Virus record (IMG/VR): IMGVR_UViG_3300027734_000287
Coordinates: 1 to 25,814 of that record
Source of the DNA: a virus
DNA: 25,814 nt
Direction: 5' to 3' (one strand)
Shown: piece after piece, positions 9,897 through 23,440 of the stretch
Layout: each line of letters begins with the position of its first letter
How positions within the stretch are numbered: position 1 is the stretch's first letter
Translations under genes and position numbers: made by a program
The notes under the pieces: model-generated
Databases searched by the model: none
The model's input: only the letters and a program-made list of their open reading frames with translations
Told to the model about the DNA's origin: nothing

Positions 9897-10103
9897 ATGC
9901 AACTGAAAGATTATTTTGAGAACAAACCGCACGGTAGTAAAGTAATATTCGCTAAAAGTCTTGGTATCACAAAGACTTGGCTTTCGTTAATCATGAGTGG
10001 TAGAAAGTTACCTAGCGCGTCGTTATGTGCAACGATAGAAAGAATTACAAACAAGAAAGTAAAAAGGAAAGATTTGCGACCTGATTTATTTGGTGGAGTA
10101 TAG
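9897..10103 (+). CDS. YdaS/Cro-like helix-turn-helix regulator
   Basis: A 68-residue protein with a Cro/CI-type helix-turn-helix at about residues 13-45 (FAKSLGITKTWLSLIMSGR) and the RKDLRPDLF segment (residues 58-66). The latter is typical of the YdaS family, whose members are Cro-like phage regulators. The ribosome binding site AAAGGAGAGC precedes the ATG. It is the first gene of the rightward operon and sits directly beside the divergent promoter pair, so it probably regulates one or both promoters. No CI-type partner repressor was seen in the window. Confidence 0.85.
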   Translation: MQLKDYFENKPHGSKVIFAKSLGITKTWLSLIMSGRKLPSASLCATIERITNKKVKRKDLRPDLFGGV

Positions 10104-10105
10104 AT

Positions 10106-10801
10106 ATGCACTATTTTGAGTTCAACATTAAAGACTACAGAGCTGATGCATTTCAACTAACGCTTATTCAACACGGCGCATACAAACAACTTATAGATCA
10201 ATATTGTTTGAATGAATCACCTTTAACTTTAGATTTAGAAGTTTTGTTTTATGACTTATTAATAAGAGGTGATGATGAAAAGAAAGCTATTGTATTTGTA
10301 TTGGAAAAGTTTTTCGATAAGACCGAGAATGGTTATGTTCACAAACGATGTGACGCTGTTATTCAAAAGTTTCAAGCGAAAAGTAATCAGTCTCGTAATG
10401 CGGTGAACACAAGATGGGCAAAAGAAAAGGGTAAGGATACGGACGTAATACGAGAATCATACGACCGTAATACGAACCAAGAACAACCAACAAATAACAA
10501 AAAACCAAAAAACATATATTCAGGAAAGTCAGATAGGTTTGATGATTTTTGGAGCGCATGGCCAAGTGGGGAGCGCAAGCAGTCAAAAGCAGATTGCAAA
10601 AAGAAATGGCAATCTAAAGGGCTAGATGAAATTGCGGACAAAATTATCAGTCATGTAGAAAAAATGAAATTAACTGATCAGTGGATAAGGGGTTTTGAGC
10701 CTATGCCCGCCACATATTTAAATCAGGAGCGTTATTTAGATTTTGATGAGCCAAGCTCTCAAGCGGGAATACCAATCAACATGTTAAGAAAAGCTATATG
10801 A
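10106..10801 (+). CDS. DUF1376-type phage replication protein
   Basis: A 231-residue protein. Residues 1-90 match DUF1376 (YFEFNIKDYRADAFQLTLIQ, then a GAYKQLID segment and HKRCD). The C-terminal part (residues 145-210) has the FWSAWP...RKQSKADCKKKW pattern common in phage replication initiators and helicase loaders. Between them is a hydrophilic linker (about 105-140). Two 22-bp-spaced iteron-like repeats are embedded in the linker-coding DNA (10437-10475), recalling lambda O, whose gene contains the origin. It sits two genes upstream of a DnaB-type helicase. Replication initiation or helicase loading is the likely role; this is inferred from domain family and context. Confidence 0.8.
   Translation: MHYFEFNIKDYRADAFQLTLIQHGAYKQLIDQYCLNESPLTLDLEVLFYDLLIRGDDEKKAIVFVLEKFFDKTENGYVHKRCDAVIQKFQAKSNQSRNAVNTRWAKEKGKDTDVIRESYDRNTNQEQPTNNKKPKNIYSGKSDRFDDFWSAWPSGERKQSKADCKKKWQSKGLDEIADKIISHVEKMKLTDQWIRGFEPMPATYLNQERYLDFDEPSSQAGIPINMLRKAI
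10437..10475 (-). repeat. Two iteron-like repeats inside the replication gene
   Basis: Read on the minus strand, two 17-base units, TCGTATTACGTCCGTAT (10437-10453) and TCGTATTACGGTCGTAT (10459-10475), are spaced 22 bases start to start. Each contains the dyad TACG-NN-CGTA. They encode residues of the interdomain linker. The same element occurs three times at 21010-21070. Confidence 0.85.
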
Positions 10802-11157
10802 TTGGGCTAGATCAACTTCTTGAGGTTAGAAAAAATGGCGTTACACCCGAAGCAATTAATATTTGGGTTGGCGAAGATAGTGATCCACATTATGAGGGTG
10901 TGTGGCACAAGTATTCAGACACACAAAAATACCCTGCTGTTTTGATAGAACCTAAAGACAACTTAGATTCTTTTGACTTCAGGGGTATGTTTGGACTTGT
11001 TGTATTCATCAGGGGTGATAATTCTAACAGGATGCTTAAAGTTTTTGAAAAGATAAATAAATGCAAGCCTGAAAGAGTTTTTATTTTTAATTGTGGAAAA
11101 GTAGATATTGAAATTTTAGATAGTAAAGGATTATTAAGTGGAATTCTTGACGCCTGA
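10798..11157 (+). CDS. Hypothetical protein between replication protein and helicase
   Basis: A 119-residue protein with no recognised domain. Its ATG overlaps the stop of the DUF1376 gene (ATGA), and it overlaps the GTG-started helicase gene by 20 bases, so all three are translationally linked. Alternating hydrophobic strands such as MFGLVVFIRG and ERVFIFNCGKVDIEIL suggest an alpha/beta fold. The position between initiator and helicase suggests an accessory replication role, but nothing in the sequence proves it. Confidence 0.7.
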   Translation: MIGLDQLLEVRKNGVTPEAINIWVGEDSDPHYEGVWHKYSDTQKYPAVLIEPKDNLDSFDFRGMFGLVVFIRGDNSNRMLKVFEKINKCKPERVFIFNCGKVDIEILDSKGLLSGILDA

Positions 11158-12088
11158 GGAAATAGATTTCGAAAAGTATTTAAAAGAAACTGAACAGTAT
11201 CAGAAGGTTCGTCCTGTCAGTGTATTTATTGATGACATTGAAGAGAACATAAAAAATCCGAAGCCTGATGAAAAATGTTTTACACCTTGGAAGGGTGCTG
11301 AAGCAACATTTCACTTTAGGGCGGGTGAGGTTACGGTTTATGCAGGAAGTAATGGTGGTGGCAAATCTTTAATTACAGGTCAAGTAGCGTTGAGCTTGAT
11401 TAAACAAAAGCAACGTGTATGTATAGCTTCTTTCGAGATGAAACCAAGCAAAACTATTTATCGCATGTTGCGACAATTTGCAGGTGAAGATTTAGATAAT
11501 CCTTTTATTAAAGATAAAGCAAATCATTTTAAATCAGCGCTTGAAAAGTTTAAAAAGTTTACAGAAGAAAAACTTTGGTTATATGATCAGCAAGGTACGA
11601 TGACGCCTGATCAAATTATTGCGGTTACTAGATACTGTGCCATCGAATTAAAAATTCAACATATGTTTATAGACTCACTTATGAAATGTATGAAGGCTGA
11701 AGACGACTACAACGCGCAGAAAGCTTTTGTCGATGAGCTGACAGCAATTGCAAGAGATCATAATATGCATATACATTTAGTACACCATATTAGAAAACTT
11801 GGCAATCAAGAGCTTATGCCTTCTAAGACAGATCTTAAAGGTAGTGGTGCTATTGCAGATCAAGTGGATAATGTATTACTTATGCACCGCAACAAAAAGA
11901 AAGAGCATGATATTAGTCAAGGAAAAGAAGTTGCTGATGATGTGCCTGATGCTTATCTAATGTGTGAGAAGCAACGTAATGGTGAACATGAAGAGTGGTA
12001 TAAGCTTTGGTATCATAAAGAAAGTCAACAGTTTTTAGATTCGCCCGATGGTTTTGTTATGGTATTTGAAGATGGTGGCAGGTTTTAA
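11138..12088 (+). CDS. DnaB-type replicative helicase (RecA-fold ATPase)
   Basis: A 316-residue protein starting at GTG (11138), chosen because AAAGGA lies about seven bases upstream. It has a RecA-fold ATPase core: Walker A GSNGGGKS at residues 70-77, a Glu in ASFEM near residue 100, Walker B HMFIDSL with Asp179, and HLVHHIRK near 213-220 (the H-motif region of DnaB-like helicases). It lacks the N-terminal DnaB domain and any primase domain, so it corresponds to the helicase core only. It would unwind DNA at the replication fork, probably loaded by the DUF1376 protein two genes upstream. A RadA/KaiC-like ATPase is the alternative. Confidence 0.85.
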   Translation: MEFLTPEEIDFEKYLKETEQYQKVRPVSVFIDDIEENIKNPKPDEKCFTPWKGAEATFHFRAGEVTVYAGSNGGGKSLITGQVALSLIKQKQRVCIASFEMKPSKTIYRMLRQFAGEDLDNPFIKDKANHFKSALEKFKKFTEEKLWLYDQQGTMTPDQIIAVTRYCAIELKIQHMFIDSLMKCMKAEDDYNAQKAFVDELTAIARDHNMHIHLVHHIRKLGNQELMPSKTDLKGSGAIADQVDNVLLMHRNKKKEHDISQGKEVADDVPDAYLMCEKQRNGEHEEWYKLWYHKESQQFLDSPDGFVMVFEDGGRF

Positions 12089-20526: not shown

Positions 20527-20798
20527 TGATTGGTACAAAAGAAAATATTAAGATTGGTGACATCGTTCGAGCTTACGATTTTGCGCCGAGAGAAGGATGC
20601 CCTGATTGTTTTATTGTTGGGAAGGTGACTGACCTCGATGGTCAATTCTTTGTAGCTAAAACTTTAACGCGTGTTTGGAACGGCAAGGTTGATAATCAAG
20701 GTAATGAAAGAAGTCAAGTGCAACATACTTTCCGTGCATTATGCCAAGGTGAAATGGGCTTTGACATAGGCTACGAGCGTGTTACAATACTGTCATGA
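20523..20798 (+). CDS. Hypothetical protein
   Basis: A 91-residue protein starting in an ATGA overlap (a second ATG follows immediately, so 20526 is an alternative). It looks like a small beta-barrel (IKIGDIVRAYDF, CFIVGKVTDLDGQFFVAKT) of the kind seen in many phage accessory proteins. Two Cys lie in GCPDC. No function is assignable. Confidence 0.65.
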   Translation: MMIGTKENIKIGDIVRAYDFAPREGCPDCFIVGKVTDLDGQFFVAKTLTRVWNGKVDNQGNERSQVQHTFRALCQGEMGFDIGYERVTILS

Positions 20799-20974
20799 GT
20801 CAGCATAGATATGTTGGTTTAATCGATGGCGAAAAAATGCGTGGCTTTCATTCACGCGTAGAATTAGAACATTGGTTAAAAGATAAACCCGAAGCAACCT
20901 TTGTTAGGTATTCAGTAAAGCGCGAAAAGAAACCAAAATTAGATTTGAGTGAATACGAACTAGCGCCTTTCTAA
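20795..20974 (+). CDS. Hypothetical 59-residue protein
   Basis: Starts with an ATGA overlap to the preceding gene. It has a strand-like start (HRYVGLIDGEKMRGF), then a charged helix and a basic segment (VKREKKPKLD). It is the last gene of this accessory unit; the iteron-like region begins three bases after its stop. The function is unknown. Confidence 0.6.
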   Translation: MSQHRYVGLIDGEKMRGFHSRVELEHWLKDKPEATFVRYSVKREKKPKLDLSEYELAPF

Positions 20975-20976
20975 TA

Positions 20977-21004
20977 TTGTTTATTGTTATTTGTTTATTG
21001 TTAT
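20977..21004 (+). repeat. Two perfect 14-bp AT-rich tandem repeats
   Basis: TTGTTTATTGTTAT occurs twice in exact tandem (20977-20990, 20991-21004), directly before three iteron-like repeats. An AT-rich direct repeat next to iterons is the layout of a DNA unwinding element in iteron-type replication origins. Confidence 0.85.
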
Positions 21005-21009
21005 TGGTT

Positions 21010-21070
21010 GGTATTACGTCCGTATCAATCATCGTAATACGTCCGTATGTTTTCCGTAGTACGCCCGTAT
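21010..21070 (+). repeat. Three iteron-like repeats, candidate replication origin or operator array
   Basis: Three 16-base direct repeats, GGTATTACGTCCGTAT (21010-21025), CGTAATACGTCCGTAT (21033-21048) and CGTAGTACGCCCGTAT (21055-21070), are spaced 23 and 22 bases start to start, so they lie on one face of the helix. Each contains the dyad TACG-NN-CGTA. The gap between genes here (20975-21164) contains no reading frame that I trust. The same element is found twice within the DUF1376 replication gene. Confidence 0.9.
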
Positions 21071-21125: not shown

Positions 21126-21154
21126 TTGACTTATCCCTATTGTCCGTTTACATT
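21126..21154 (+). promoter_or_regulatory. Possible promoter for a near-leaderless terS transcript
   Basis: TTGACT (21126-21131) and TACATT (21149-21154) are separated by 17 bases. The predicted start point (about 21161) is only a few bases before the terS ATG at 21165, and no ribosome binding site precedes that ATG. Confidence 0.4.
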
Positions 21155-21164
21155 CTATTGCATT

Positions 21165-21737
21165 ATGTCAGAGACAGCTATCACAAAGAAGAGAGTCGTA
21201 TCATCTTACGAAGATAAGGATGAAGAGACTCGTGCGTCAAGTAAACAATCTAACAAGGGCTCGACTGTAGGTAACAAGGGTGGAAGACCTACGCTCTATA
21301 GTCTTGAGATTGCTTTGGAGATATGCGATAGGATTGCTGACGGTGAGAGTTTAGTTAAGATTTGTAGCGATGCGAAGATGCCGAAGAAGACTGCGGTGTA
21401 CGAGTGGCTGTTGCGTCACAAAGAGTTCGCGGAGATATATGCGCGCGCGAGAGAAGATCAAGCTGACACATTGGCTGACGAGATTCACGCAATCAGTGAT
21501 GAGCTACCACAACAGATCGTTGATGACAAGGGTAAGACTCGTTATGACTCAGCGTACGTTCAATGGCAAAAGAATAGAGTGGACGCTCGCAAGTGGGTGG
21601 CCGCGAAACTTAAACCTAAGAAGTATTCAGACAGGATCGCACACGTTGGTGACAACGAATCAGACGCGATCAACATCAATGTCAACATCTTTGACGAAAT
21701 GATTAAGAACCTCGAACTAAAGAGACAGGCCAAATGA
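21165..21737 (+). CDS. terS: Terminase small subunit
   Basis: 190 residues from the ATG at 21165. An in-frame ATG at 21126 would lie in the promoter and adds an unlikely N-terminus. The pattern GRPTLYSLEIALEICDRIAD, then ESLVKICSDAKMPKKTAVYE and WLLRHKEFAEIYARAREDQA, is that of the phage terminase small subunit family with an N-terminal helix-turn-helix. It recognises the packaging site and recruits TerL, which is three genes downstream. The first 40 residues are polar and probably disordered. The neighbouring repeats at 21010-21070 could also be part of the packaging recognition region. Confidence 0.85.
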   Translation: MSETAITKKRVVSSYEDKDEETRASSKQSNKGSTVGNKGGRPTLYSLEIALEICDRIADGESLVKICSDAKMPKKTAVYEWLLRHKEFAEIYARAREDQADTLADEIHAISDELPQQIVDDKGKTRYDSAYVQWQKNRVDARKWVAAKLKPKKYSDRIAHVGDNESDAININVNIFDEMIKNLELKRQAK

Positions 21738-21826: not shown

Positions 21827-22002
21827 GTTTCGAGAAACGTAAGGCTGACGCGTTCCTAACGACCAAGCTTAAACAAGAGATTAAGTCATATGAGCTAGAC
21901 GATGGTCAGCTCGATGAGAAGCAGTACGCAAAGATAAGAAAGCTCGTAGGTTACGAGTTAGATAAATCGACAGGAGAGGTCGTAAAGTTATTTGATGAAT
22001 GA
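21823..22002 (+). CDS. Hypothetical 59-residue protein between terminase genes
   Basis: Starts in an ATGA overlap and ends eight bases inside terL. It is a charged helical protein (FEKRKADAFLTTKLKQEIKS, then a Lys/Glu-rich second half). No family was recognised. Its position between the terminase subunits suggests a packaging-associated or structural small protein, by context only. Confidence 0.6.
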   Translation: MSFEKRKADAFLTTKLKQEIKSYELDDGQLDEKQYAKIRKLVGYELDKSTGEVVKLFDE

Positions 22003-23440
22003 TGTTGTTGATTTACTTAAAGACAAAGAAGTAGAAGCGCAGTTTAAATCGCTACCCATTGCTAAACAGATAGCGATAGCGTGGCGCATGAAGTGGTTAA
22101 CGCAAGCGCACGATCACCAAATACTTCCTCACGGTGATTGGGCGATATGGTTACTATTAGGTGGTCGAGGTGCGGGGAAGACTAGAACGTCTGCTGAGCA
22201 GATAGGATGGTGGGCTTGGGAACAGCCCAACACACGATGGTTAGTATCCGCACCGACATCGATGGACGTACGCGGTACATGTATCGAAGGTGAATCAGGA
22301 TTGCTTAACGTGATACCTGAGATCCTTATTGCAGACTATAACAAGTCATTGCTCGAGATCAAGCTGACGAACGGATCATTGATCAAAGGCATATCAGCGT
22401 CAGAACCTGATCGATTCCGCGGTGGACAGTATCACGGCGCGTGGCTAGATGAGTTGGCGGCGTGGGATTACTTACAAGAAGCATGGGACATGATTCAGTT
22501 CTCAGTGCGGTTAGGTAAAGAGACAAGGATCATTGCATCAACGACACCACGTCCTAAAGACTTGATCGTTGACTTAGTAGGAAGGTCTGATGACGGTAGT
22601 GGTGAAGTCGTTATGACAACCGCGTCAACGTACGCGAACATAGACAACTTAGCACCAAGCTTTCAACAACAGATATTGCAGTACGAAGGAACGAAGCTAG
22701 GTCGACAAGAGATCTATGCCGAACTGATTGACCCTGAAGAGGGTGGCATTGTTAAAAGAGATATGTTTAAGTTATGGGACGCGAAGAAACCATTCCCTAA
22801 GTTTGAATACATCATACAGAGTTACGATTGCGCATACACAGAGAAGACCATCAATGACCCGACAGCGTGCTTAGTCTTCGGCGTGTTCAAACCGATGGAT
22901 GGCCCAATGGCGGTGATGTTGATAGATGCATGGCAAGAACGCATGCAGTACCCTGACCTAAGAAAGAAAGTGCAGGAAGAGTATGAAGTTAGTTATGGTG
23001 CAGATAGCGAGTCTGACACAGGAGAGTTTGTCAAAGGTAAGCGAGTTGATCTCATCCTTGTCGAAGATAAGGCGAGTGGAATCAGTCTCATACAAGATAT
23101 GCAACGGGCGCATCTACCTGTGCGAGCTTACAATCCCGGTAGAGCGGACAAAGTACAGAGACTTTCCATTGTTGCAAACATTATCGCTCATGGACGCGTG
23201 TGGATTCCCGAGTCATCAGTACGACGTGGATATGTTCGTGATTGGGCCGAGGGCTTTGTGTCGCAGATATGTTCGTTTCCTGAAGCTACGCATGATGACT
23301 ATGTGGACGCGTGTACGCAGGCGCTTCGGTATCTAAGAGACGCAGGCATGTTAGAGATTGACCCGAGACCTTACGACGCATCAGAAGATTATGCTGACGC
23401 TTATGAATACAAAGAGAGAGTCAATCCTTACTCCGTGTAA
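21995..23440 (+). CDS. terL: Terminase large subunit (ATPase/nuclease)
   Basis: 481 residues from the ATG at 21995, preferred over the TTG one codon upstream. The ATPase domain has Walker A LLGGRGAGKTRTS (core at residues 56-63), Walker B AWLDELAAWD (Asp152, Glu153) and the coupling motif IIASTTPRP (about 179-187). The C-terminal RNase-H-like nuclease domain starts near residue 270 with SYDCAYTEK (Asp278), continues with LILVEDKASG and ends with HDDYVDACTQAL, supplying the acidic metal ligands. It drives DNA into the procapsid and cuts the concatemer. The portal gene is not in the window, which is unusual for an adjacent gene. Confidence 0.95.
   Translation: MNDVVDLLKDKEVEAQFKSLPIAKQIAIAWRMKWLTQAHDHQILPHGDWAIWLLLGGRGAGKTRTSAEQIGWWAWEQPNTRWLVSAPTSMDVRGTCIEGESGLLNVIPEILIADYNKSLLEIKLTNGSLIKGISASEPDRFRGGQYHGAWLDELAAWDYLQEAWDMIQFSVRLGKETRIIASTTPRPKDLIVDLVGRSDDGSGEVVMTTASTYANIDNLAPSFQQQILQYEGTKLGRQEIYAELIDPEEGGIVKRDMFKLWDAKKPFPKFEYIIQSYDCAYTEKTINDPTACLVFGVFKPMDGPMAVMLIDAWQERMQYPDLRKKVQEEYEVSYGADSESDTGEFVKGKRVDLILVEDKASGISLIQDMQRAHLPVRAYNPGRADKVQRLSIVANIIAHGRVWIPESSVRRGYVRDWAEGFVSQICSFPEATHDDYVDACTQALRYLRDAGMLEIDPRPYDASEDYADAYEYKERVNPYSV

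Follow-up and report, generated by a model that had tools for sequence, protein, structure and literature searches.

The stretch of viral DNA analyzed here, which we call the window (IMG/VR virus record IMGVR_UViG_3300027734_000287, 1 to 25,814; 25.8 kb), carries two arrays of short repeats, one inside a replication initiator gene (array 1) and the other in the gap between ORF 20795–20974 and terS (array 2) (Table 1). The initiator (ORF 10106–10801) matches Pfam family DUF1376 (PF07120) with E = 1.9e-20 (73.5 bits, against a gathering cut-off of 30.1), and its PHROG matches are primosomal or replication initiation proteins. Behind it stand a 119-aa ORF, for which we found no Pfam or PHROG match and no PDB relative, and a gene for a DnaB-like helicase, with the terminase genes 10 kb further downstream in the same orientation. 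This order resembles that of SPP1 genes 38-39-40, which encode an initiator, a helicase loader (gene 39) and a DnaB-type helicase; the 119-aa ORF occupies the position of gene 39. A small HTH protein of the YdaS_toxin family (E = 9e-10) is encoded at 9897–10103, immediately upstream of the initiator, and a 21-bp tandem repeat of 3.2 copies lies in a coding region at 1074–1141. We take the ATG at 21165 as the likelier start of terS, because the TTG at 21126 falls within a promoter-like site.

Table 1. The two arrays of the window and the genes around them.
Feature	Position	Strand	Basis or remark
Replication initiator gene, N-terminal DUF1376 domain, 231 aa	10106..10801	+	Pfam, PHROG
Coding iteron unit 1, CGTATTACGTCCGTAT	10437..10452	-	Unit scan, 0 mismatches
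Coding iteron unit 2, CGTATTACGGTCGTAT	10459..10474	-	1 mismatch; 22 bp from unit 1
AT-rich tract beside coding iterons	10476..10515	-	GGTTnTT-type heptads on minus strand; putative DNA unwinding element
119-aa ORF between initiator and helicase, no assigned family	10798..11157	+	
DnaB-like replicative helicase	11138..12088	+	DnaB_C E=1e-20; phrog_5482 E=1e-71
59-aa ORF directly before intergenic array	20795..20974	+	
Intergenic AT-rich tract, TTGTTTATTGTTATTTGTTTATTGTTATTGGTTGG	20975..21009	+	7- and 14-bp tandem repeats; shared, inverted, with coding copy
Intergenic iteron unit 1	21010..21025	+	Unit scan, 1 mismatch
Intergenic iteron unit 2	21033..21048	+	0 mismatches
Intergenic iteron unit 3	21055..21070	+	1 mismatch
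Promoter-like site TTGACT-17-TACATT between array 2 and terS	21126..21154	+	Consensus scan only
Terminase small subunit (terS), Sf6 type	21165..21737	+	PF20901 E=1.9e-37
Terminase large subunit	21992..23440	+	Terminase_6N E=7e-24

The longest of the window's inverted repeats pairs 10454–10505 with 20979–21030 (52 nt, 83% identity) and resumes after a one-base shift at 10430–10453/21032–21055 (24 nt, 83%), while BLAST gives 84% identity across 10437–10505. When the window was scanned with the 16-bp unit CGTAWTACGNCCGTAT, allowing up to two mismatches, five matches were found (chance expectation 0.01), two on the minus strand of the initiator gene, three on the plus strand before terS and none elsewhere. 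Local alignment of the linker-coding segment of the initiator gene with the intergenic site scored 47, compared to 13.0±2.0 when dinucleotide-shuffled linkers were aligned with the 1.1 kb ahead of terS. The inverted duplicate that a preliminary description had reported between 10437–10500 and 20984–21048 is thus real by repeat search, BLAST and unit scan alike; both repeat units that it named were recovered, but it had overlooked the third intergenic unit. An AT-rich tract is also common to the two copies and flanks the units on the same side in each; as the copies are inverted, the tracts face each other across 10.5 kb.

Array 1 and its AT-rich tract correspond to codons 111–137 of the initiator gene. 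In an AlphaFold model (32 relatives), residues ∼1–111 form a winged-helix-like domain of helices and a β-hairpin with a long C-terminal helix, residues 111–140 are a disordered linker, and residues 145–212 form a second domain. A sequence search of the PDB returned no relative, and comparison of the modeled fold gave weak winged-helix matches with Z of 5–6 (the ORC2 winged helix, plasmid RepA/Rep initiators, and the MarR/ArsR type), which are consistent with, but no proof of, DNA binding by the DUF1376 protein. The array thus falls in a predicted disordered linker, a segment in which the protein can accommodate it, like the lambda origin in gene O. A peptide that recurs in the linkers, TNNxxPxTNN, is specified by minus-strand GGTTnTT heptads both in the window (10476–10515) and in the isolate DUF1376 phages (L193–L207); the heptads beneath this peptide suggest that selection acts on the DNA, as an unwinding element.

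Lambda carries iterons and an AT-rich region midway through gene O (PMC7466680), and in lambdoid phages, as in the window, both elements lie in the initiator coding sequence between the two domains of the protein, so that the earlier likening of the coding copy to gene O holds. The two systems differ in that lambda has a single array of four 19-bp imperfect inverted repeats, whereas the window has 11-bp phasing and a matched array 10.5 kb away, and in that Pfam places the window's initiator in DUF1376 and not in a lambda O family. P1 oriL, within repL, offers a further likeness: an AT-rich element inside the initiator gene is needed there for lytic replication, although a paired distant array like the window's is not described in the abstract of that work (PMC9948254).

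To follow the two sites among relatives, we collected viral contigs through their TerS and helicase matches. Array classes differ completely among these related contigs, yet the two sites of one contig carry the identical class: TACGtcCGTA in the window and L002/L250, TGTTCAAC in L026 and L032/L174, AACCnnCGGTT in L102 and L157, AACCAATCG in L130, AACCGAATCGG in L112, L116, L123 and others, and GCGATGGCAATGC in L092/L298 and L093. When iterons alone were compared, the coding array of the window scored 25 against its own intergenic array and 6 against those of L026 and L174; the coding arrays of L026 and L174 scored 25 and 24 against their own partners and 8 each against the window's, and that of L001 (GCATTGCG class) scored 27 against the intergenic array of L018. 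Overall, own pairs scored 24–27 and other classes mostly 6–12, with values up to 19 for the GCATTGCG class. Across 28 clusters the matched pairs summed to 573, compared to 386±20 for shuffled pairings, and none of 100,000 shuffles reached 573 (p≤1e-5, a value that, like the positional p-value below, overstates independence because the loci are kin to one another); the number of different array classes is the stronger argument. In L013, L016, and L018, unrelated iterons precede terS even though TerS is 93–98% identical and the right flank, including the region of the promoter-like site, is 94–99% identical.

The co-variation between the two loci that the preliminary description had proposed to look for is therefore present in related contigs, and the independent change that it had named as the contrary outcome is not what they display. 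Because the sequences at the two sites have been replaced jointly, the paired arrays probably work as a unit, much as the two origins of SPP1 do, and the joint change of class supports the earlier proposal of shared initiator sites, as putative sites, at both loci.

The second array also keeps its place. In a test that assumed no site beforehand, 35 dereplicated loci were compared, and 23 of them had their best off-gene match to the linker in the 1.1 kb preceding terS, where 6.6% per locus, or ∼2.3 loci, would be expected (binomial p∼3e-19). The remaining 12 loci failed this test, and some low-scoring positive loci may be chance matches; at least one positive (L144) matches an AT-rich stretch and not iterons. 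Together with the joint change of class, this constancy supports the idea of a two-site system raised in the preliminary description. The spacing from initiator to terS is 7–11 kb in most loci. Arrays of both kinds show a phasing of 11 bp, close to one turn of the helix, with z = 11.5 for coding arrays, z = 10.4 for terS-proximal arrays, and z = 10.2 for the linkers of 15 isolate DUF1376 phages; a 7-bp periodicity (z = 4.8 in coding copies, z = 7.3 in isolate-phage linkers) comes from the GGTTnTT heptads.

Organization of the second site is less uniform. In the window and its close relatives (a clade with L250, L026, and L174) it is a distant non-coding copy of the same organization, with the AT-rich heptads duplicated alongside the iterons in the same order, while in most of the wider family it has 11-bp units without a matching AT-rich tract. 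In L092/L298 and L093, array 2 lies inside the small ORF preceding terS, the counterpart of the window's 59-aa ORF; in L116 (16361–16388) and L274 (12562–12598) it is placed within the 5′ portion of the region matched to TerS, where it apparently encodes a disordered N-terminus. The relative orientation of the two arrays varies among relatives, while all 76 comparisons made show helicase and terminase pointing the same way. That inverted copies might recombine and flip the segment between them, as had been suggested, finds no support in either observation, and the copies are only 83% alike, which also argues against such inversion.

Since the linkers of isolate DUF1376 phages are phased likewise, coding iterons look general for DUF1376 phages, and the second array is a feature of the window's lineage. 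A scan of the 15 isolates gave a possible second array only in Acinetobacter phage phiAC-1 (L203/JX560521.1), where a GCATTGCG-class array occupies an intergenic gap between convergent genes (22078–22110), ∼19.3 kb from the initiator array and roughly opposite to it on the 43-kb circular map. With a candidate in one isolate of 15, pairing is not a general property of all DUF1376 phages, and the second site is dispensable for DUF1376-type replication in general. No initiator was found when we attempted to close contig L041. In MW202545, whose TerL is 64% identical, the replication module is of another kind ("primase-like") and we saw no array ahead of terS, so that it has no bearing on the pair.

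Comparison of initiators gives a lead on which part of the protein reads the array. The window and L002 have the N-terminal domain, segment 84–125, and array class in common, and their C-terminal domains are unrelated; L001 has the same C-terminal domain as the window and largely the same N-terminal domain, but differs in the basic stretch 84–110 and in array class. Across these three initiators, C-terminal domains are swapped independently of array class. The pattern points to the N-terminal half of the initiator, perhaps its last helix, as the candidate reader, and it is a lead only, because stretch 84–110 adjoins the array in the DNA and linkage alone could produce the same pattern.

The closest precedent for this arrangement is SPP1, in which oriL lies inside gene 38, an intergenic oriR lies ∼12–13 kb away, and the same initiator, G38P, acts at both; bound oriR has been proposed to stall the fork and so trigger concatemer synthesis (PMC6316719, PMC3485210). 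SPP1 and the window both have one array in the initiator gene and a second between genes, with repeats and an AT-rich tract at both, and their spacings are comparable (10.5 kb in the window). The likeness that we draw is one of arrangement, and the window's initiator has a DUF1376 domain. SPP1 differs further in that its oriR lies in the late region with moron genes, whereas array 2 directly precedes terS, many relatives of the window have no AT-rich tract at array 2, and array sequences in the window's family switch class as a pair. We propose that the window's pair may work like that of SPP1, without claiming membership in an SPP1-type system.

With modest confidence, we lean towards a scheme drawn by this analogy, in which two matched arrays serve one DUF1376 initiator, array 1 being the main origin and array 2 an oriR-like site. 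Array 1, inside the linker coding sequence and next to its AT-rich tract, would most likely be the main (theta) origin: the winged-helix-like N-terminal domain would bind its 11-bp-phased units, the AT-rich tract would melt, and the DnaB-like helicase encoded just downstream would be loaded there. Cumulative GC skew reaches its lowest value near array 1 and does not turn at array 2; gene strand confounds this measure, but within that limit the profile fits array 1 as the main origin. Array 2, ahead of the terminase promoter and terS, would be bound by the same protein and would most likely act as oriR does, by assembling a second initiator complex that serves as a late origin or fork barrier and promotes the change from circle replication to concatemers packaged by the terminase. 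The lack of a matching AT-rich tract in most of the wider family argues against a full-origin role for array 2, and "second binding site" is for this reason a safer term than "second origin". Also weighing against the scheme are the single candidate second array among 15 isolates, the lack of a skew turn at array 2, and the 12 loci that failed the positional test.

The main rival, which we consider possible but rather unlikely, is that array 2 controls transcription: initiator bound before the terminase (late) promoter would couple late genes to replication and have no replication role at that site. The array lies directly upstream of the promoter-like site and terS, its position before terS is conserved, and its iterons often come without the AT-rich tract in the wider family, so that binding, not melting, is what is conserved. 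An operator would have no need of the AT-rich heptads that the window's clade duplicates as well, however, and arrays within the TerS 5′ region or the preceding small ORF (L116, L274, L092/L298, and L093) indicate that the place relative to the promoter is unfixed. Less probable still is a titration or handcuffing site, paired with array 1 through the initiator so as to limit or time initiation in the style of iteron plasmids; matched arrays for one protein at similar spacing would suit it, and looping or titration could tolerate the unconserved orientation, but the constant place of array 2 beside terS is left unexplained. Packaging sites (pac) are often found next to terS, and array 2, adjoining terS, might be the pac/cos site recognized by the small terminase and resemble array 1 by descent or chance. 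We regard this as very improbable, and largely refuted, because TerS and array vary independently in L013, L016, and L018 and the arrays match the initiator linker of their own contig. That the two copies are alike by accident, or through a single duplication without common function, scarcely merits consideration: low-identity two-copy repeats are common and some low-scoring loci could be of this kind, but the loci change class together and the second copy holds its position, and the shuffled-pairing, positional, and iteron-only comparisons refute it.

Our search of the open-access literature found no description of DUF1376 as an initiator or of its link to arrays, of array pairing or paired class switching, or of the 11-bp rule. 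By linking a "domain of unknown function" to defined DNA sites, the joint change of the two arrays serves as a natural experiment, and one that tells us that the second site matters. It also bears on the repetitive TNNxxPxTNN linkers, for which it suggests a cause: what is kept appears to be the DNA rather than the peptide. More broadly, and only tentatively, a widespread group of aquatic tailed phages may use a two-site replication system in which initiator specificity and both arrays, mostly separated by 8–11 kb, are swapped together as matched parts, the second array tying the mode of replication to the start of packaging. In that case DUF1376 would serve as the iteron-binding domain in a large family of phage initiators. 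The pair offers a comparative test, across many other phages, of the SPP1 model in which a second site leads to concatemer replication.
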